Virus record (IMG/VR): IMGVR_UViG_3300050138_000100
Span: 1 to 50,647 of that record
DNA from: a virus
Direction: 5' to 3' (one strand)
Length of the DNA: 50,647 nucleotides
This document shows, piece by piece, positions 5,474 to 35,352 of this stretch (its first letter is position 1; every line of letters starts with the position of its first letter). The notes under the pieces are model-generated. The model made no database searches and had not been told where the DNA came from. It worked only from the letters and a program-made list of their open reading frames with translations. The translations under genes and the position numbers were made by a program.

Positions 5474-5500
5474 TGCGCTGTCTCCTTTGACTTCAATCTA

Positions 5501-5925: not shown

Positions 5926-6322
5926 AATCTATCTCCTCTCGACGGTCCTTATAGCAGAACAGGTGCACGTGGTACAGGCCCATTATACTCCGGCGGCGCT
6001 GCATATTGTCGATCATGCCGTCGTAATTTTGCTCGCCGTACGTCTCCAAAATACGCATTAAATCGAAATACTCGACCGGCAGCATTGCGCCGCGCGTGGC
6101 AAAATCCCGTTTCGGTATCAGCAGATCGTGCTTGCTAAAAACGGCGTCGTACGGATAGCGGTTTCTAATCAAAAGCCACTGCTTAAACTCCTCGACTACC
6201 ATCTCTTTGCGTACGTCGGTCAGCTTATCGTCTTTGGCGGCCTTCTGGTAGGCGCGTTCGGCGGCGGCGCTGCGCAGGCTCATCGGTAGGCGTTCAGCCT
6301 TTGATTTTTTTCGGCTTGTCAT
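5909..6322 (-). CDS. Hypothetical protein, 137 aa
   Basis: Basic N-terminus then a helical region (EMVVEEFKQWLLIRNRYPY) and a C-terminal stretch GLYHVHLFCYKDRREEID. Overlaps the end of the ParB-like gene by 29 bases, so it is translated from the same message and may take part in the same DNA-linked function. GGGGGAG lies very close to ATG 6322; ATG 6283 is an alternative. Confidence 0.7.
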   Translation of the reverse strand: MTSRKKSKAERLPMSLRSAAAERAYQKAAKDDKLTDVRKEMVVEEFKQWLLIRNRYPYDAVFSKHDLLIPKRDFATRGAMLPVEYFDLMRILETYGEQNYDGMIDNMQRRRSIMGLYHVHLFCYKDRREEIDFEGKA

Positions 6323-7055
6323 GCTCCCCCTTCTCGCGCTGTTCGTAGTAAACGTCCACGATATCCATCATCAGGCTCATTACGCCGGCAATATTTCGTA
6401 TATCTTCGTAACGGCTAATCTTGTGCACGGTCGCGACAAAATGCTTGAAGTCGTCGACGTCGGCCACGTACTTTTTAGCTTCCGGCACGAGCCGGTCGAT
6501 CAGCTGCTCGAAGCGCTCACTGCCGGACTTCATAAACATAATGTAGATCGGCTCAAACTCGAACTCCACGTCTAGGTCGTCGACGTTTATGCTCGGAATA
6601 TCCATCGCCACGTCCAGCTCCGTCAGGCCCGACGCCATGCGCTGATTCACGTCTTCAATACTCTCGTACAGCTTCTTGAGCAGCTCCGGGTTACTAAAGC
6701 CACTTAACGCGTTGTGCGCCAGTTGCTTCGCTGTAATTTCGTCATCACTTAGCTCGCGCTCGATGACAATTACGAATATCTCCATAATGCCAGCTACCCT
6801 AGCGCTGCGGGCCCGATGATGACCCGATATAATCAGGAACTCTGGCGGCTTCCTTGATGTTAACAAGACCAGCGGCAAGCTTTCAAGTGCACCCTCGGCC
6901 TTCATGTTCTGCGCCAGCTGATTAAACTTGTCCTCAGACATCACCTGAGCGTTGACGTCGGCTTCGCGCAGAGAATCAAGATGTACGCGCCAGATAGCCA
7001 TACCTGGAGTTAGTTCCAATAAACGCTCTGGTTCAGGTATGTCCGTTTTACTCAT
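6294..7055 (-). CDS. ParB-like nuclease-domain protein, 253 aa
   Basis: Residues 25-125 match the ParB/sulfiredoxin fold: a beta region then LPLVLLTSRKPPEFLIISGH and GHHRARSARVAGI, the GxHRxxA signature. Phage proteins with this domain often bind or nick DNA or take part in DNA modification; which applies here is unknown. The C-terminal 120 residues are acidic and helical. It overlaps the HNH gene upstream by four bases, forming a cluster with it and the methyltransferase-like gene. Confidence 0.85.
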   Translation of the reverse strand: MSKTDIPEPERLLELTPGMAIWRVHLDSLREADVNAQVMSEDKFNQLAQNMKAEGALESLPLVLLTSRKPPEFLIISGHHRARSARVAGIMEIFVIVIERELSDDEITAKQLAHNALSGFSNPELLKKLYESIEDVNQRMASGLTELDVAMDIPSINVDDLDVEFEFEPIYIMFMKSGSERFEQLIDRLVPEAKKYVADVDDFKHFVATVHKISRYEDIRNIAGVMSLMMDIVDVYYEQREKGEHDKPKKIKG

Positions 7056-7519
7056 GTCGCTAATGCCTTATTTAACTGATACCATGTGCGCATAGCCTCA
7101 CCCCTGCACTCACGACAGTTGCGTCTACCGTTAGGCGTGACATAAGTATTTTTTTTATCGTAGACGTGACCTTGCGGACAGTGAGTTTTTGAACGATGTT
7201 GAGCGCCTGTTTTTTGGCCGGTCTTGCCACGCTTATTATTTTCCCTATGCGTGACTGGCTCCAAATGAGCAGGGTTTACACAGCGTCGGTGCTGGCAGGT
7301 TTTGCCACCTAAACAACTCTTGTCAGCATTGTGGCAGGTATGGTCGAGCTCCAGGCCGGCCGCGATCGGGCCGACGATTAGCTCGTAGGAAATACGGTGG
7401 GCTTGCAAAGTTCTGCCTTCAAACCAAAATCTACCATATCCACGACTTAGCTTAGCTGTCCATAGCCAACAGCTATCTGTTTTTTTGACCTTAGTCCAGA
7501 ATCGTTTATTTATTAACAT
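7052..7519 (-). CDS. HNH endonuclease, 155 aa
   Basis: Classic phage HNH layout: FWTKVKKTDSCWLWTA, GYGRFWFEG, AHRISYE, LELDHTCHN, CVNPAHLEPVTHRENN. The central D-H and later N-H residues form the beta-beta-alpha metal site. The C-terminus adds a zinc motif (HCPQGHVYD and NCRECRG). Such enzymes are often selfish homing nucleases; here it sits between two overlapping DNA-related genes and could also be functional in that cluster. Confidence 0.92.
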   Translation of the reverse strand: MLINKRFWTKVKKTDSCWLWTAKLSRGYGRFWFEGRTLQAHRISYELIVGPIAAGLELDHTCHNADKSCLGGKTCQHRRCVNPAHLEPVTHRENNKRGKTGQKTGAQHRSKTHCPQGHVYDKKNTYVTPNGRRNCRECRGEAMRTWYQLNKALAT

Positions 7520-8942
7520 CTGCCACTAACTCCTTCGGCTTAGCAAACTCGACTTCCTCAGCCAAAAAGCGGCGGACCTGATCGGCGAACGTCTCCTGCC
7601 GGAACTCGGCCTGGTACATGATTTTATACATGCCGTCCTTCATACGCTCGCGCTTCTCGACGGTCAAAATACCATTGTTCAGCTTCACCTTACGATACTT
7701 GCTCAGGCACGTCGTCCGCAAGCCCTTCATGTAATAATAGCGATTCACGCGGCTGGCCTGGTCGTGCACCAAGTCGCCAAACTCCTGGCAGGTGATCGCC
7801 AACATCAGCAGTCGGTTGGCCCGCGCATACTTCTCGAGCGACACGTTAAAGCCGTAATTCTCGAACACGTAGTCCTGCTGCAAGCGGAACATGTGGCTCA
7901 GCATAAACGCGCAGGTCGCAAACACCTTGCCATCGAGCAACATCAAAAAGAAATGCTCGCCGCTGGTTTGACCCAGCTTGTGCGCGAATAAGTCCCGGTA
8001 GTATAGCGCTACGTTGGCTGGGACGGTGACAAAGCTAATCCTGGTATCTTCGGTAATCTCGTCGTCGTCACTGAATAGCGGGGCCTTATATGGCTTGAGC
8101 TCGCGCCGGCCGAACGTGGCGATCTTGTTCAACCCCTTCCAGTCCTTGAGCAGCTCCGGCTTCGTGCAGAGCCAGTAATCTATCTTCTGCACGTTGTACT
8201 GCTTGGCATAAATAACCTGCTCGCTATCAAACCCGGCAACGGACCGGCTGCGATACCACACGAACGGTGCCGGGCTTTTGAGCGTCTGCTCGTACATGTC
8301 GCGGTACTCCTTGCCAAAGCTAAACTCCGGTACGTTCGGGTCAAACTCGATGTCGCTACCGAAGTCAAACATCTTCGTATAGCCGTTACTGAAAACAGGC
8401 GGGTTAACCACAACCAAATCCCCATGTGTATAACGGGCAGTCAAAACTTCGCGCATATCTTGTAGCTCGTACTTGACACCAGCAAAATAAGGCTTCATGG
8501 CCTTGACCTTGCCCTTCAAGATTTCCCGGTGCTTCTCTCCGTTAATCAGCAAATCCTCGAGCTGGGCCTTCATGTAATGCACCTTGCGTATCTGGCATAC
8601 CTTCATCAGCCAGAGCAGATACGCTACGCGCTCGACGTCACTCTGGCAGAGCTGATAATCGTCGAACCACGCGTCACCTACCTTAAACTCGATCTCACGC
8701 ACCTTACGGCCGGCGAAGTAATACCCGAGCAACGTGCTGTACAGCGATATGTCGCTCGTGTAAATATTCTCTTTGGCAAACCCGGCTTCGATCGCGCAGC
8801 GGGCCAGCGTGAACTGACCGACCGCGGGCAAAAATATACGACTGTGGCCCAAGTCATAAAACTGCTTGAGTACAGCCGTCAGATACTTACGCTGATCGGC
8901 GGGGGTATGCCCCAAGAATATGCTCTCGTTTTTACTTACCAT
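7506..8942 (-). CDS. DNA adenine-methyltransferase-like protein with extra C-terminal domain, 478 aa
   Basis: Residues 36-66 look like a SAM-binding motif I region (RIFLPAVGQFTLARC, then DISLY), and residues 179-184 (NPPVFS) match the catalytic NPPY/F motif of N6-adenine methyltransferases, followed by NGYTKMFDF. Residues 325-470 are a second domain (SGEHFFLMLLDGKVFATCAF, LRTTCLSKYRKVK) that loosely recalls GNAT/Mom-type acyltransferases; that part is speculative. Start is ATG 8942, 14 bases after the tRNA's CCA end, with GGAGACAACGG between; an upstream in-frame start would read through the tRNA. Possible role: protecting phage DNA from host restriction. Confidence 0.75.
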   Translation of the reverse strand: MVSKNESIFLGHTPADQRKYLTAVLKQFYDLGHSRIFLPAVGQFTLARCAIEAGFAKENIYTSDISLYSTLLGYYFAGRKVREIEFKVGDAWFDDYQLCQSDVERVAYLLWLMKVCQIRKVHYMKAQLEDLLINGEKHREILKGKVKAMKPYFAGVKYELQDMREVLTARYTHGDLVVVNPPVFSNGYTKMFDFGSDIEFDPNVPEFSFGKEYRDMYEQTLKSPAPFVWYRSRSVAGFDSEQVIYAKQYNVQKIDYWLCTKPELLKDWKGLNKIATFGRRELKPYKAPLFSDDDEITEDTRISFVTVPANVALYYRDLFAHKLGQTSGEHFFLMLLDGKVFATCAFMLSHMFRLQQDYVFENYGFNVSLEKYARANRLLMLAITCQEFGDLVHDQASRVNRYYYMKGLRTTCLSKYRKVKLNNGILTVEKRERMKDGMYKIMYQAEFRQETFADQVRRFLAEEVEFAKPKELVADVNK

Positions 8943-8956
8943 AAACCGTTGTCTCC

Positions 8957-9032
8957 TGGCTGCGGACAAAGGATTCGAACCTAAGCTTTCTCTGGTTAGA
9001 CCAGAGCGTCCTACCAACTAGACGATTCCGCA
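8957..9032 (-). tRNA. tRNA with anticodon CTA (amber suppressor type), Gln-like
   Basis: A 76-base cloverleaf on the minus strand: acceptor TGCGGAA/GTCCGCA, D arm GTC/GAC, anticodon stem CTCTG/CAGAG with loop GTCTAAC (anticodon at 8997-8999 reads UAG), T loop TTCGAAT, encoded GCCA 3' end. The U1-A72 pair, TC at 8-9 and G73 match bacterial tRNA-Gln. Weak points: two T-T mismatches in the T stem (TTAGG/CCTTT) and an A-G mismatch at 7-66. The CCA is followed directly by the RBS of the next gene. Confidence 0.85.
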
Positions 9033-9812: not shown

Positions 9813-9840
9813 TCGCGCTGTCTCCATTTAGTGTAGTTAT

Positions 9841-10095: not shown

Positions 10096-10328
10096 TATGC
10101 TGTCTCCTCTACATTATAGTTATCGCTGACCGTTGCCGGTCGGCTTGTTATTGCACTGCCTACTTTTTTAACCTTTGCCGCGACCTTGCTGATGATCGGC
10201 CACAAACAGGTCGTTATTATTAAAAACGCGCCGACGCCGCCGGTCCAATAGAACGCGGTGTACTGCCCGTGCGACAGCATACCGAACGCTGAGTAAATAG
10301 CGTAAATGCCGGCCAGTAGCACGGCCAT
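10095..10328 (-). CDS. Two-span membrane protein, 77 aa
   Basis: Two hydrophobic segments, about residues 2-16 (AVLLAGIYAIYSAFG) and 26-46 (GGVGAFLIITTCLWPIIS), then a basic and polar tail. Start chosen at ATG 10328 because it overlaps the upstream TGA (TGATG) and has GGGAG nine bases before; a GTG at 10373 would add 15 residues. Early membrane proteins of phages sometimes block superinfection, but nothing here proves that. Confidence 0.65.
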   Translation of the reverse strand: MAVLLAGIYAIYSAFGMLSHGQYTAFYWTGGVGAFLIITTCLWPIISKVAAKVKKVGSAITSRPATVSDNYNVEETA

Positions 10329-10998: not shown

Positions 10999-11033
10999 TT
11001 CGTTGTCTCCATTGTTCTTATGTTTATGTAATT

Positions 11034-11089: not shown

Positions 11090-11719
11090 TCACGTGCCGT
11101 AATACTTAATCCACTCCAGCGTCACGAAAAGCCGTTCGCAGCGGACCCGTAACCAGTCGCGAATCATCATCAGATCGGCAACCCGAATCGGCACTATGAC
11201 CTTCGCGTAGCCCATAATTTTCTTGTAGTCGTGGTCCCAAAACTCAATCAGGTACACAGCCTTGTCGACCCGAATCCCGTGCGCGTACATCTGGTATGCG
11301 TACACCAGGTGCTGCTTACTCGCCCGGTAATGCTTGACGGTAGTCTCGTAGTCAGATATCGACGTTTTGTAGTCCACGATCGTAGCCTCGGGCTTGCTGA
11401 AAACGTCCGGCCGGCTGTGCAGCACCACGCCTTCGAATATTTCGGTCGCAAACTCGCGCTCGATGTACGTTGCCGGCACTTGGTACTCGCAGGGAAACTC
11501 CTTAAACACCTCTGGCGTGACGCCTGTGTTTTCAGCTTCTTCCTGCCACATCTCGTGCCGCATTGTCCCGAAGTTCATGGGGCCGCCGGTCGGCCGGTAG
11601 CGCTCGGTGATACCTAAATATTCGAGCGCTACCTTATCGACTGAGCCAGGCGTACAGCGGGTCAGGTCCGTATATCTGGTGTGAACCTTGCCGTCATTCT
11701 CCTTCTTGTAATCGGCCAT
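11090..11719 (-). CDS. PD-(D/E)XK exonuclease (RecB/Cas4-like), 209 aa
   Basis: Residues about 100-125 carry RPDVFSKPEATIVDYKT, the D-x(n)-DxK core of PD-(D/E)XK nucleases, with downstream KQHLVYAYQMYAHG as the usual QxxxY helix. It overlaps the RecT/Bet-like gene upstream, so the pair likely forms a double-strand-break recombination module: the exonuclease resects one strand and the annealase pairs it. Size fits phage RecE/lambda-exo analogues of this type. Confidence 0.85.
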   Translation of the reverse strand: MADYKKENDGKVHTRYTDLTRCTPGSVDKVALEYLGITERYRPTGGPMNFGTMRHEMWQEEAENTGVTPEVFKEFPCEYQVPATYIEREFATEIFEGVVLHSRPDVFSKPEATIVDYKTSISDYETTVKHYRASKQHLVYAYQMYAHGIRVDKAVYLIEFWDHDYKKIMGYAKVIVPIRVADLMMIRDWLRVRCERLFVTLEWIKYYGT

Positions 11720-12488: not shown

Positions 12489-12711
12489 AGCACTCCTTTC
12501 GATTATGATCAAAAACTAAACCAGCACACGTCGGAGCGGAAGGGCTCACTTGACGTTCGGCTCACTCGGGGTTTACGAGAATGTGGGGTTCCTTGCGGAA
12601 ACCTTACCAATCCTTAACGCCCATGCCGGCCTAGTCACTGATCGCTTGTTAAAGTACCTGCTGCTAAGCAGGCTACCGGCGAGCATGTTTGCCTACTCGC
12701 CAGAAGTCTAC
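12489..12711 (-). other. Non-coding stretch with hairpins
   Basis: About 220 bases without a gene. It holds a perfect hairpin with arms CCTGCT/AGCAGG (near 12660), another GGCGAG/CTCGCC (near 12680-12705), and an imperfect GGTTTCC/GGAACC stem near 12600. None is followed by a U-run, so these are not simple terminators. CATAAT about 20 bases before the Bet start could be its -10. Confidence 0.45.
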
Positions 12712-12966: not shown

Positions 12967-12995
12967 AGCGTTGTCTCCATTAATACTATAGTCTT

Positions 12996-13024
12996 ATAGT
13001 ATCAAGCGTACCCCTGTTTGTCAA
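12996..13024 (-). promoter_or_regulatory. Strong sigma70-like promoter
   Basis: Minus strand TTGACA, 17 bases, TACTAT. The spacer (aacaggggtacgcttga) is nearly identical to that of the promoter at 18215-18243, pointing to a duplicated promoter cassette or a shared regulator site. Confidence 0.85.
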
Positions 13025-13248
13025 GGGGATTTTGGTTTATTTGGGCTACCGGCCCGGCTGCTCAATCGCCCGCCTTTTGCACCGGCAATTTTAGCCAACT
13101 CGCGGTTAACTGCGAATCCGTGCGGCCGGCGGTTCTCGCGGGCCTCGGGCGACCATGCTTTTTGCCCTAGCTTCACGTAAAAATCAGCCCCGTAAGTATC
13201 TTTGATTTCCTGCGCGGCCAATAATCCGCCTTCTCTACTTCCTGCCAT
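13021..13248 (-). CDS. KGG-motif (stress-protein GsiB-like) small protein, 75 aa
   Basis: Contains LGQKAWSPEARENRRPHGFA and IAGAKGGRLSS, matching the glycine-rich KGG repeat found in GsiB-like hydrophilic proteins and several phage proteins. ATG 13248 lies eight bases after GGAG; a TTG at 13254 is less likely. Mostly disordered, perhaps protective or DNA-associated; unproven. Confidence 0.75.
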   Translation of the reverse strand: MAGSREGGLLAAQEIKDTYGADFYVKLGQKAWSPEARENRRPHGFAVNRELAKIAGAKGGRLSSRAGSPNKPKSP

Positions 13249-13553: not shown

Positions 13554-13753
13554 TAAAACAGTCTCCTTTGCCCGCGTATCTGTTCGAGATACACGCACTT
13601 AAACTTTTTACTTCGACGCATAATTTCATACCTAGCAATCACGGCGACACTGTGGTCGCTGAACGTAACCAGGCGGACCTGTTCTTCGTCAAGCAGCACT
13701 TCCGGCAGTATCGAGCCTTCGATTTCTACCTTCGTCCACTTACGCTTGCTCAT
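13553..13753 (-). CDS. Small basic protein, 66 aa
   Basis: Beta-rich and basic (WTKVEIEGSILPEVLLDEEQ, later MRRSKKFKC). TAATG overlaps at both ends, so it is coupled to its neighbours. Function unknown. Confidence 0.7.
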   Translation of the reverse strand: MSKRKWTKVEIEGSILPEVLLDEEQVRLVTFSDHSVAVIARYEIMRRSKKFKCVYLEQIRGQRRLF

Positions 13754-14169
13754 TAGCGCCTGGTTACTTTGCGCCAGACCTGATCAAATGCGTCTTCGAC
13801 TACGTCCCAAAACTTGTCGACCCGGGTTTTGCCGGTCAGCCTGCCTTCCGCAACCCTGTCCCTGGCTCCTTCGGCTTCCATATAGCTAGGCCTGGCGGCG
13901 TCGAGCTTGGTGTCGTGAGTATTCACAAACCTAGCGACGTGGTCGTCGAGCTTGGCTATCATCGCCTCGCTGTTAGCTAGGCGTGTGTGTACGGAGCCGC
14001 CGATGGCGTACACTCGGTACTTGTTCGTGATAGGCCCGTACTTTAACTGATTAGGCTTACCTAACCTGTTAAACCAGGTTAGCGTTTTGTGATATGCGTC
14101 TTGCAGCTCTGACGCGACGACCGGGCGGCTGAACCCGCCGTTGCTCATTGCAAACTTGTACTTTGCCAT
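13753..14169 (-). CDS. Hypothetical protein, 138 aa
   Basis: First gene after the promoter at 14201-14229, behind GGAGACAACGCT. N-terminus beta-like with YKFAMSNGGFSRPVVASEL, C-terminal half helical and basic, ending WRKVTRR. No family recognised. Confidence 0.75.
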   Translation of the reverse strand: MAKYKFAMSNGGFSRPVVASELQDAYHKTLTWFNRLGKPNQLKYGPITNKYRVYAIGGSVHTRLANSEAMIAKLDDHVARFVNTHDTKLDAARPSYMEAEGARDRVAEGRLTGKTRVDKFWDVVEDAFDQVWRKVTRR

Positions 14170-14200
14170 AGCGTTGTCTCCGTTTACTGTTAGTGCTTAT

Positions 14201-14229
14201 ATTGTAGCTTAAACGGTAACGGTATGCAA
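14201..14229 (-). promoter_or_regulatory. Sigma70-like promoter
   Basis: Minus strand TTGCAT, 17 bases, TACAAT, for the gene starting at 14169. It begins right after the hairpin at 14240-14302. Confidence 0.7.
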
Positions 14230-14239
14230 ATTATAAACG

Positions 14240-14302
14240 GCCGATCGTTTCGCCTCTGGAGACAACGACTTAAAAAGAGGTTGAAAGGCAGCCACGATCG
14301 GC
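14240..14302 (-). ncRNA. Hairpin displaying a sequence complementary to the shared RBS
   Basis: On the minus strand, arms GCCGATCGT and ACGATCGGC pair perfectly (9 bp), enclosing an inner CCTCT/AGAGG stem. The loop carries GTCGTTGTCTCC, the exact complement of GGAGACAACGAC, the RBS consensus used in this genome. It lies just after the NinG-like stop codon, so it would be the 3' end of that message. No poly-U run follows, so it is not a standard terminator. A regulatory role is inference. Confidence 0.5.
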
Positions 14303-14303
14303 A

Positions 14304-14840
14304 CTATCCTATTTTACCATTAAGCTCCGACTTATTAACCAACCAGAGTAGTATTCTCGTCAGCTCGTCCGACTTATCTTCACGCATATCGGTAATTGTC
14401 CTATACCAGGACCCGCCGAAAACCAGCTCGAACAGCGCCGGCTGCCAGCGGCCTTTATCGGCGTGTACTACCGGCACGTGCACCGCGTCGCATAGGCAAA
14501 TCAGATTCCACTGCTCGTTGCACTCATGCTCGGACAGGTAAATGATATGGTGGGCGTGCCGGCGGATTCCACAGACGTGCGGGACCACGCCTACTAACTG
14601 GCAGACGTAATTTACGCGCTGTTTGCACTCAAGCTTGGCTGCGGTTCGCTCGGCTGGCTCGGCCGGTTTGCGATGAAGTCGCGGATTAGCGGTTCGCGGT
14701 TTCGCATGGGCTGCGTACCTTTTGGTTGCAGCGCCTTTGCGAGCGCAAGCAGGAGAGCAATAGCGATCGGTTGACCGATACGGCCGAAATTCATTCGGGC
14801 ACTCCCTACATTTTTTTAATTTAACTTGCGGTGTCTCCAT
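14304..14840 (-). CDS. NinG-like zinc/HNH recombination protein, 178 aa
   Basis: Residues near 11-33 read CRECPNEFRPYRSTDRYCSP with a further Cys, the paired zinc motif of lambda NinG (Rap); the C-terminal half has CGIRRHAHHIIYLSEHECN and WNLICLCDAVH, an HNH-like core. Rap is a structure-specific endonuclease aiding lambda Red recombination, which fits the Bet/exonuclease pair nearby. Start uncertain: GGAGACA follows the ATG at 14840, so a GTG at 14852 or a non-AUG start after it is possible. Ends in TAG. Confidence 0.8.
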   Translation of the reverse strand: METPQVKLKKCRECPNEFRPYRSTDRYCSPACARKGAATKRYAAHAKPRTANPRLHRKPAEPAERTAAKLECKQRVNYVCQLVGVVPHVCGIRRHAHHIIYLSEHECNEQWNLICLCDAVHVPVVHADKGRWQPALFELVFGGSWYRTITDMREDKSDELTRILLWLVNKSELNGKIG

Positions 14841-15530: not shown

Positions 15531-15559
15531 TTGCAAAAGTAAACAAGCCGTGATAAACT
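15531..15559 (+). promoter_or_regulatory. Plus-strand promoter candidate
   Basis: TTGCAA, 17 bases, TAAACT on the plus strand, opposite to all genes. Predicted start near 15566, at the first CAGTCACGTT repeat. Confidence 0.5.
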
Positions 15560-16171: not shown

Positions 16172-16192
16172 TGCGTTGTCTCCTTGAGCTGG

Positions 16193-17127: not shown

Positions 17128-17155
17128 AGCGTTGTCTCCTTGTTTAACTTCTTTC

Positions 17156-18175: not shown

Positions 18176-18214
18176 GTCGTTGTCTCCTTTGATACTGCTT
18201 ATGTTTATACTTAT

Positions 18215-18243
18215 ATCATATCAAGCAGTACCCCTGTTGTCAA
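18215..18243 (-). promoter_or_regulatory. Strong sigma70-like promoter
   Basis: Minus strand TTGACA, 17 bases, TATGAT. Spacer nearly identical to that at 12996-13024. Confidence 0.85.
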
Positions 18244-18248
18244 GGGTT

Positions 18249-18962
18249 TTATACCTGTGAATCGAACTTTACGGCAACGGCCCGGCTGTGCCAGCCGACG
18301 TCTTTCGGACCGTCCTTTTGAGCCCACGCGCTGAACGCGTACATAGCCTCGAAGTCGATCTGCCCGAACTTGCCGATTTTCTTGAGCCACCAGAGCATAC
18401 TGTTGTGGTTCAAATGCCCGTGATCGCCGTCGGTATCATGCGCCTGGTCCGGCGATGTGCTGCCATTTGCAATAAAGAAGCCGTAACGGGCGTGCTGGGC
18501 CATGAAATGCAACACCCGGTCGACGTCTTCATTCATAATGTGCTCCAGGAATTCACACGCTGTCACCAGGTCGACTTTAGCCGGCGTTTGGTATTTCCAT
18601 GTGTCTCCGTCCAAAGCGTCGCCTATAGACACTCTACGTGCGTCGGCTGGTGTGATTCGGCTCAGCCGGTCCTTTGCCTTCAAAATTGCGTATTCGCTGA
18701 CGTCGAAGCCGGTGGCGTCGATATCGTTATCCAAAAACTCGCTGACGCTGAACCCGTACGCGCAGGCCACGTCAACCGCGCTGCCGATCGGCCCGTGCTT
18801 CTCGCGCACCGTCCTGATGATTGCCTTGTAAAGCATGCGGACGATCTGCTCAGTCGTCGAGTAATCGGCGTAGCCGCTGATAGTGCCGGCTTCAAAATAG
18901 TCCCGGCCATAAACTTTCGGATCGTACTTCCGGGCGTAATTATGTTCGTGCTTGTCTGCCAT
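18249..18962 (-). CDS. SAM-dependent methyltransferase, 237 aa
   Basis: Class I Rossmann methyltransferase pattern: AVDVACAYGFSVSEFL (motif I variant), DATGFDVSEYAILKAKDRL (acidic ribose-binding residue), KVDLVTACEFLEHIMNEDVD (motif IV). The target is unknown; the N-terminus YDPKVYGRDYF resembles small-molecule or sugar methyltransferases rather than DNA enzymes. Follows the DUF2786-like gene with a 23-base overlap. Confidence 0.85.
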   Translation of the reverse strand: MADKHEHNYARKYDPKVYGRDYFEAGTISGYADYSTTEQIVRMLYKAIIRTVREKHGPIGSAVDVACAYGFSVSEFLDNDIDATGFDVSEYAILKAKDRLSRITPADARRVSIGDALDGDTWKYQTPAKVDLVTACEFLEHIMNEDVDRVLHFMAQHARYGFFIANGSTSPDQAHDTDGDHGHLNHNSMLWWLKKIGKFGQIDFEAMYAFSAWAQKDGPKDVGWHSRAVAVKFDSQV

Positions 18963-20369: not shown

Positions 20370-20379
20370 CGCTGTCTCC

Positions 20380-20707: not shown

Positions 20708-20744
20708 AGTGCGTTGTCTCCTTATCTTTTATGTTTATATATAA

Positions 20745-20772
20745 ATCATAGCAGACATGCACATTGTGTCAA
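20745..20772 (-). promoter_or_regulatory. Strong sigma70-like promoter
   Basis: Minus strand TTGACA, 16 bases, TATGAT, then a leader with ATAAACATAAAAG similar to that at 11.0 kb. Heads the early operon. Confidence 0.85.
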
Positions 20773-20810
20773 GGGTAATATCAGGGGTCAGAATACTTCT
20801 GTGGACAAAT

Positions 20811-20843
20811 GAAAAACGAGCCAACCCCTCGAGGTCAGCTCAT
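20811..20843 (-). terminator. Intrinsic terminator after the lysis genes
   Basis: Minus strand stem GAGCTGACC/GGTTGGCTC (9 bp, two G-U pairs) with a short loop, followed by GTTTTTC. A second hairpin GAGCAG/CTGCTC lies at about 20860-20880. Together they separate the late operon from the early promoter. Confidence 0.8.
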
Positions 20844-20919
20844 TTCCCTACCAAAACCCGAGAGCAGGGTCGATTCTGCTCACAAGGCCATTCTAGGTAG
20901 ATTTCATGTGAAAGTCAAC

Positions 20920-34226: not shown

Positions 34227-35330
34227 TCACTGCGGGTAGTGCTTTGCGATAGCATTTGCGAACTGCTCGGCTACGTGCTGGTAACTGAACGCCTTATGCG
34301 CCCACCGGCTGCGCTCTTTAGCCAATGATCGCCGGTACTCGCGATGGTCATAGGCGAAACGCATGCAGCGCTTCAAATCTTCGTAATCGCTCTCAACCCA
34401 GTTACCGACAGGCCCCCATTTAGGCGGGTACTTCAAGGCTTTCGACTTGCCGGCCGACTTGACGGTCAGGCTAAACCTGTGTCTCGGGTCCATCAGCTCG
34501 CGCATGCCCGTATTGTCGGCCATTATGCAGTCCATACCAGTCGCCATCGCTTCGAGCGGCGGCATACCAAAGCCTTCGCCCCGGCTCGGGAACACGAAAC
34601 AATCGCTGTTAGCCATCAGCTCGTACATCTGTGCCTCGCTGTACGGCGCGTCGATAATCCTAATGTCGCCCAACTCCTTAGCAAATTCTAAATTGCCATG
34701 CGTACCGGACTGCGTTTTGACGATCAGCGTCACGTCGTCCTGGCCCTTAAACTCGTCCATGAAAGCCGATATCACGGCGCCGCTATTTTTGCGCAGCGTC
34801 AGCGTCCCCATAATCATAAACGTGAACTTCTTACGCTCCTTGCGCTCGATGTACGGGAAAGCCTTCGGGTGGACGCCGTTGTGCATGACTTCGATCGGCA
34901 CTGTCACGCCGTTTTCGCGGAACATCTCGACGCAGAATTGGCTCGGCGTCAACAGCAGATCGAGCTGGCTGTTTATTGACTTGGCAGCCGTCGGGTACTT
35001 GCCGGTCCAGTCGCTATAGCCTTTAGGCATGGTGTCGGTCTCAAACATCGTAAAGCCGACGCGATATGGATAACTCTGAATCAAGTGAAAGTCGCCCGGG
35101 AAGGCATGGCAGACGCCTATGTCTGCGTGTCCCTGCGGCTTGCTGAGCAGCGCCTGGCCCTCTTTACTGACGTTACCTAGCGGAATGTACTGCTGGACGT
35201 TAAACGGCACTACGTACAGCTCAAACTCGGGCAGGCGGTCGATCGCCAGTGCCGTCTGTTCGCTGCTGCCGCTGTAACCCTGGCCGCCGCTGAATGTTCC
35301 GTGCCATGCGATCTCTATAGGCTGTTTCAC
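34227..35330 (-). CDS. Glycosyltransferase family 4-like protein, 367 aa
   Basis: GT-B pattern: YSGSSEQTALAIDRLPEFEL near the start, LTPSQFCVEMFRENGV and VMHNGVHPKAF, FTFMIMGTLTLRKNSG, and the EGFGMPPLEAM motif (donor-binding glutamates). It would transfer a sugar from a nucleotide-sugar donor; target unknown. Start GTG 35330: the ATG at 35345 lies in the RBS (GGAGACAAC-GTG). It has its own promoter, and a terminator stands between it and the capsid gene, marking it as an inserted moron. Confidence 0.88.
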   Translation of the reverse strand: MKQPIEIAWHGTFSGGQGYSGSSEQTALAIDRLPEFELYVVPFNVQQYIPLGNVSKEGQALLSKPQGHADIGVCHAFPGDFHLIQSYPYRVGFTMFETDTMPKGYSDWTGKYPTAAKSINSQLDLLLTPSQFCVEMFRENGVTVPIEVMHNGVHPKAFPYIERKERKKFTFMIMGTLTLRKNSGAVISAFMDEFKGQDDVTLIVKTQSGTHGNLEFAKELGDIRIIDAPYSEAQMYELMANSDCFVFPSRGEGFGMPPLEAMATGMDCIMADNTGMRELMDPRHRFSLTVKSAGKSKALKYPPKWGPVGNWVESDYEDLKRCMRFAYDHREYRRSLAKERSRWAHKAFSYQHVAEQFANAIAKHYPQ

Positions 35331-35352
35331 GTTGTCTCCGTTCATTTCCTTG

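Follow-up and report, generated by a model that had tools for sequence, protein, structure and literature searches.

RNA loops that block ribosome-binding sites (RBSs) have been described in several systems. The C4 RNA acts on the RBS of one gene, and the LhrC and NfeR1 RNAs act on many; an earlier sequence-only reading of the DNA analysed here, which knew of no described example of a one-to-many antisense hairpin, was therefore too strong on this point. LhrC and alpha-r14/NfeR1 carry unpaired anti-Shine-Dalgarno motifs that silence, or are predicted to silence, several mRNAs. In phage T4, genes e, soc and 49 have inhibitory leader structures (PMC3014915). In cluster K mycobacteriophages, 14-17 start-associated sequences (SAS, GGGATAGGAGCCC) are found at RBSs, together with one inverted site (PMC3203893). 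The inverted site was reported solely for four K1 phages, and the authors left open in 2011 whether an RNA or a protein binds the SAS (PMC3203893).

The stretch of DNA analysed here, called the window, is the complete virus record IMGVR_UViG_3300050138_000100. It is 50,647 bases long and nearly all of its genes lie on the minus strand, hereafter the coding strand. The claim that at least ten genes share an RBS is borne out: the minus strand of the whole window holds ten exact copies of GGAGACAACG, nine of them clearly before an ATG and one before a probable GTG start. Three copies of a first variant, GGAGACAGCG, and one of a second, GGAGACAGCA, are found on the same strand. The copies are the following.

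5476 to 5485, minus strand: variant GGAGACAGCG (5' end 5485), with a module promoter
8947 to 8956, minus strand: GGAGACAACG, immediately after a tRNA gene
9816 to 9825, minus strand: variant GGAGACAGCG (5' end 9825), with a module promoter
10098 to 10107, minus strand: variant GGAGACAGCA (5' end 10107)
11001 to 11010, minus strand: GGAGACAACG, with a module promoter
12969 to 12978, minus strand: GGAGACAACG, with a module promoter
14172 to 14181, minus strand: GGAGACAACG, RBS of the gene at 13753-14169, 77 nt downstream of the hairpin loop described below
16174 to 16183, minus strand: GGAGACAACG, before an ATG, with a weak promoter
17130 to 17139, minus strand: GGAGACAACG, with a module promoter
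18178 to 18187, minus strand: GGAGACAACG, with 12 bases complementary to the hairpin loop
19985 to 19994, minus strand: GGAGACAACG, with a module promoter
20370 to 20379, minus strand: variant GGAGACAGCG (5' end 20379)
20712 to 20721, minus strand: GGAGACAACG, with the module promoter TTGACA-16-TGCTATGAT
35330 to 35339, minus strand: GGAGACAACG, before the probable GTG start (35339) of a glycosyltransferase gene

Allowing up to one mismatch, 18 matches to the shared RBS are observed against 3.6 expected from shuffles. The extended form GGAGACA[AG]C occurs 14 times, with 13 of the copies between 5 and 21 kb, where it is repeated before many non-structural genes. Conservation thus extends beyond the Shine-Dalgarno sequence, as in an SAS-like RBS repeat. 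Most copies form the 3' part of promoter-leader modules, ordered as a TTGACA-like box, 16-18 bases, a TGnTATAAT-like box, the leader, GGAGACA[AG]CG and the ATG. A further match, GGAGACACCG at 14838, was rejected as an RBS: it is coding and lies inside the NinG-like gene described below.

In some modules the -35 box lies within a palindrome, such as CCCCTTGACAAACAGGGG; the form CCCC-TTGACA-(A)CAGGGG is found at 13007-13030 and 18220-18250. Judged from their sequence, these palindromes may well be operators, and can be compared to the inverted repeats in the cluster K ESAS promoters. The tRNA gene (8957-9032, minus strand), which directly precedes an RBS copy, has a CTA anticodon and is labelled tRNA-Pyl by ARAGORN. 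It is a possible amber suppressor, though many genes here end in TAG; recoding of TAG was rejected, as TAG acts as an ordinary stop in this phage. The gene at 7506-8953 (minus strand) encodes a phage Dam-like domain fused to a GNAT-like domain, and is adjoined by a ParB-like gene (6294-7055).

The plus strand holds a single copy of the shared RBS, at 14258-14267, and this copy lies inside a hairpin. The locus comprises the following features.

14304 to 14840, minus strand: HNH/NinG-like gene, upstream of the hairpin, with its TAG stop one base before the stem
14240 to 14302, minus strand: hairpin, with a 9-bp outer stem, an inner stem GCCUUU/AGAGGC plus CAAC/GUUG, and a bulge UCUCC
14258 to 14269, minus strand: anti-RBS segment GTCGTTGTCTCC, reading GGAGACAACGAC on the plus strand
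14201 to 14230, minus strand: promoter TTTGCA or TTGCAT / AGCTACAAT, between the hairpin and the next gene

The minus-strand RNA reads CGUUGUCUCC at 14258-14267. The 9-bp outer stem, GCCGATCGT/ACGATCGGC, pairs without mismatch, as the sequence-only reading had it. The inner stem that it proposed, CCTCT/AGAGG, gives way to a different one: the fold with that stem reaches -16.7 kcal/mol, against -27.1 kcal/mol (z -4.4) for the favoured fold. The latter places the hairpin within the most stable 0.6% of 63-nt windows of the same strand; perfect 9-bp inverted repeats alone are not rare (8 observed, about 13 expected). A strong hairpin is thus confirmed by folding, but not the display of the complement in an open loop: the favoured fold pairs the GUUG of the complement with CAAC and leaves UCUCC bulged, so that the loop is half open. 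Four of the ten anti-RBS bases are therefore paired, when measured against the unpaired motif of the LhrC/NfeR1 type. The 12-base exact complement holds for the 18187 leader only, the other copies being complementary over 10 bases.

By gene call, the hairpin is intergenic: the HNH/NinG-like gene precedes it, and the module promoter of the gene at 13753-14169 follows. The upstream gene matches phrog_144 (E 2.8e-7) and Pfam NinG (2e-4, under the Pfam cut-off). The promoter ending at 14201 ranks 11th of 50,597 minus-strand positions by matrix score, with a matrix trained on eight other modules and not on this one. No promoter above background was found for an RNA of the hairpin itself with the same matrix, and a dedicated small-RNA promoter ending at 14311 was rejected, its score being no better than background. 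No intrinsic terminator was detected on the minus strand at the hairpin by a consensus scan, nor is there a U tract. The sequence scans therefore do not delineate a discrete small RNA with its own promoter and a clear 3' end. Because the neighbouring genes all point in the same direction and the scan shows no intrinsic terminator, coding-strand RNA is expected to run through the hairpin. A plus-strand ORF at 14224-14541 was discarded for its off-frame-like codon use. Other strong intergenic hairpins are located at 12649-12711 and 20805-20875. The second (minus strand) is long, followed by T's and situated upstream of the module promoter ending at 20745; it is likely an intrinsic terminator, absent from the list of the scan.

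The number of exact plus-strand RBS copies expected by chance is 0.016, 0.007 and 0.006 under Markov models of order 1, 2 and 3, and about 0.06 when scaled from dinucleotide shuffles. An antisense copy anywhere on the coding strand exists for 36 of 952 leader 10-mers, and in intergenic DNA such copies are found at only two loci, the hairpin site and one near 15556. A fraction of 0.0002-0.002 of positions lies in an equally good or equally enclosed hairpin, and as an antisense match the hairpin anti-RBS site scores 18.0, the second-best site 8.8. The complement alone is hence moderately surprising, and more so jointly with the hairpin; these chance figures are only a guide, because both features were picked after the site had been seen. 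As to energetics, opening the complement costs a computed 5.4 kcal/mol, and the net predicted pairing amounts to -8.1 to -17.1 kcal/mol with 14 RBS leaders out of the 15 sites tested. The best predicted partner is the 18187 leader (12 bp, -17.1 kcal/mol), followed by those at 11010 and 20721. For the site at 14838, which is coding, the value is -5.5 kcal/mol.

The queries used to look for relatives were three proteins (the NinG-like one, the one encoded next and TerL) and an alignment of 11090-11719. Two useful relatives with synteny were obtained (G001 and G002), both distant, with TerL about 50% identical, and these queries returned none closer. Both carry shared promoter-RBS modules of their own, GGAATCAGCC-like in G001 and GGAGTCAACC-like in G002, so a shared module appears, from these sequences, to be a habit of this phage group. 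Their shared RBSs have diverged, and neither of the two has a stand-out antisense RBS copy in a hairpin. The NinG-like gene has no match in G001-G003, the exact loop DNA has none in viral contigs, and no tRNA is found in the two distant relatives. The TATAAT-plus-RBS pattern was discarded as a relative finder, as the four contigs that it matched hold no window protein. To note, both ends of G002 (50,170 bases) repeat the same sequence (L013:52, L015:9804), which suggests a circularly complete genome.

The cluster K phages offer a second view of such an architecture. The inverted SAS site was taken from the literature by orientation alone. When the coding strand is folded, the site falls within a hairpin that leaves all ten of its core bases unpaired; this holds for Adephagia, Angelica, CrimD and Anaya, at energies of -27 to -34 kcal/mol. 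On the right arm of Adephagia, 0.17% of positions are in an open loop of this kind. The hairpin region is matched by BLAST in 143 Mycobacterium phage records. An alignment of 13 sequences gives a stem of 16 consensus pairs, in which 3 of 208 cells are broken or gapped. Many pairs have changed on one or both sides and still form, with double changes at two of them. The covariation is modest (7-9 of 500 shuffles by paired cells and by score), and weaker for the double changes. The core loop CCTCCTATCC is invariant in the 13 sequences except for Amginevirus, where one base is lost, and most of the cluster K1 phages examined have kept the loop complement. With 14 SAS leaders, the loop-SAS duplex energies range from -19 to -25 kcal/mol. 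In Adephagia, late transcription begins between genes 92 and 93 according to RNA-seq, the position being given as this gap only (PMC11373665). The gap is the site of the hairpin, and since late transcription starts there, the hairpin RNA could appear at the early-late switch.

Several members depart from this pattern. SirPhilip, taxonomically also an Anayavirus, has 14 SAS and a homologous hairpin with a different loop, devoid of the complement, and no anti-SAS loop was found in the right-end stretches examined of Pixie and ZoeJ, which hold SAS. As SAS are thus present without the loop, the anti-SAS loop would not be essential wherever SAS exist, and the cluster K hairpin may have a second role. 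Covariation between loop and SAS was rejected: the SAS of the Amginevirus DarthP are standard though its loop has lost one base. The shortened loop, CCTCCTTCCC, is found at 231-243 in Ekdilam (L024) and DarthP (L025), and also resembles the 3' end of 16S rRNA. Strong hairpins just after a gene are also seen in Yuna (L037, 7806-7865), with the sense SAS GGGATAGGAGCCC displayed in the loop, and in Pixie (L036, 2793-2852), with the near-SAS GGATAGGTAG there. Both are intergenic with no gene start nearby, and are possibly sponges for an anti-SAS factor.

A tentative reading, to which we give somewhat less than an even chance, is that the window hairpin acts as an RNA antisense to the duplicated phage RBS and lowers translation of the whole RBS-sharing set. 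The hairpin would belong to a stably accumulating minus-strand RNA, as the 3' part of the transcript of the HNH/NinG-like gene and as an upstream leader for the gene that follows. Loop and bulge would present the complement of an RBS copied before at least a dozen early genes. The toehold for GGAGA would be the bulged UCUCC, and zippering would then displace the 4-bp GUUG/CAAC helix and yield 10-12 bp with the leader. Such a duplex, formed in trans, would cover the Shine-Dalgarno sequence and block 30S subunits, so that one RNA would reduce translation across the set. The one-to-many antisense idea of the sequence-only reading is thereby retained as to complementarity, strand, energetics and the cluster K parallel, and weakened by a loop that is half buried. 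Compared with what the window offers by itself, the idea gains much plausibility from the cluster K architecture with its conserved stem. Counting against it are the pairing of GUUG in the fold, the two relatives without the hairpin, the loop loss in SirPhilip, the anti-SAS loop not found in the Pixie and ZoeJ stretches, the absence of an own promoter above background and of a clear 3' end, and a span that is possibly coding. A wider proposal, which we find doubtful, is that phages whose early genes share copies of one private RBS have evolved, at least twice independently, one complement-displaying hairpin RNA that shuts down or times the whole set; in cluster K, this RNA would be the SAS ligand, made from the late transcript and acting as an early-to-late translational switch.

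The main rival to the antisense reading is a transcription boundary. The hairpin would be a factor-assisted terminator or a 3'-end stabiliser between the upstream operon and the 14201 promoter, and the complement a product of chance or the relic of an inverted module. Its location, after the end of a gene and ahead of the promoter that follows, agrees with this, as do the two other strong intergenic hairpins of the window, and the SirPhilip hairpin, kept without its complement, indicates that such a structure can serve another role. On the other hand, a U tract and a terminator-scan match are lacking, complement and hairpin are unlikely to coincide by chance, and the loop complement persists in most of the K1 phages examined. 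This explanation is possible but on balance doubtful. A switch in cis may also be envisaged, in which the loop pairs with the RBS at 14172-14181 in read-through RNA, as a pseudoknot, and silences long transcripts; those started at the 14201 promoter would lack the hairpin and be translated, in the manner of T4 gene e. This arrangement draws on the 10-bp complementarity to an RBS 77 nt downstream, on the good promoter in between and on the T4 precedent of inhibitory leaders. Folding of the read-through RNA, by a method confined to nested pairs and hence blind to pseudoknots, keeps the hairpin with no loop-RBS pairs, and the switch accounts no better for a complement to a sequence present in all modules than for one to this RBS; we consider it improbable.

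The span may instead be coding, either as a short coupled gene or as a C-terminal extension reached by TAG readthrough with the CUA-anticodon tRNA, the fold being incidental. The frame concerned is the following.

14209 to 14304, minus strand: alternative 31-codon open frame, with a GTG start in a TAGTG overlap, spanning the hairpin

It fills the gap exactly and has the best codon score of the three frames, and the phage does encode a tRNA with the required anticodon. This score, 0.062, is nevertheless ambiguous: coding sequence averages 0.30 and off-frame sequence -0.35, and the frame lies at the 13th percentile of the former and within the top 6% of the latter. The readthrough frame resembles non-coding DNA in its score, extensions after TAG genes are no longer than after others, and the span has no protein match, which makes a coding role very unlikely.

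With regard to known systems, the antisense reading brings the window close to the SAS/ESAS system of cluster K: a phage-specific RBS recurs many times across the half of the genome that holds the non-structural genes, frequently accompanied by a promoter module (PMC3203893), and one inverted copy sits in a hairpin loop. The similarity is of architecture alone, with no homology between the window RBS and the SAS: the sequences differ, the phages are unrelated, and in cluster K the loop is conserved and open throughout, whereas that of the window is half paired. As in C4 of phages P1 and P7, loops of a phage RNA would pair around an RBS and block translation (PMC12197685), but C4 has one operon as target and a characteristic structure. 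The Rfam covariance model of C4 has no match in the window, where only a tRNA reached the gathering score. The same-transcript arrangement of C4 may have a counterpart here in the next RBS, which is complementary, 77 nt downstream and presumably co-transcribed.

LhrC of Listeria and alpha-r14/NfeR1 of rhizobia likewise use one RNA with an anti-Shine-Dalgarno motif against several mRNAs; they are, however, bacterial RNAs with their own genes and several motifs directed at the generic Shine-Dalgarno, whereas the window hairpin has one motif directed at an extended, phage-specific RBS with at least ten potential targets. The leader hairpins of T4 genes e, soc and 49 also time translation by hiding an RBS in a phage RNA structure, but each acts in cis and on a single gene. 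Blocking of an RBS by an RNA loop is thus known, while a single hairpin opposed to a phage's own duplicated RBS appears undescribed in the literature searched, with Dedrick et al. 2019 on ZoeJ, said by others to discuss SAS function, falling outside its scope. The conserved anti-SAS loop provides a concrete candidate for the SAS ligand, a question of RNA or protein open since 2011, and one testable in a tractable phage. If the antisense reading is correct, genes sharing a copied RBS would form a regulon under the control of one RNA, which would be a compact means of timing many phage genes and a design usable in synthetic circuits.
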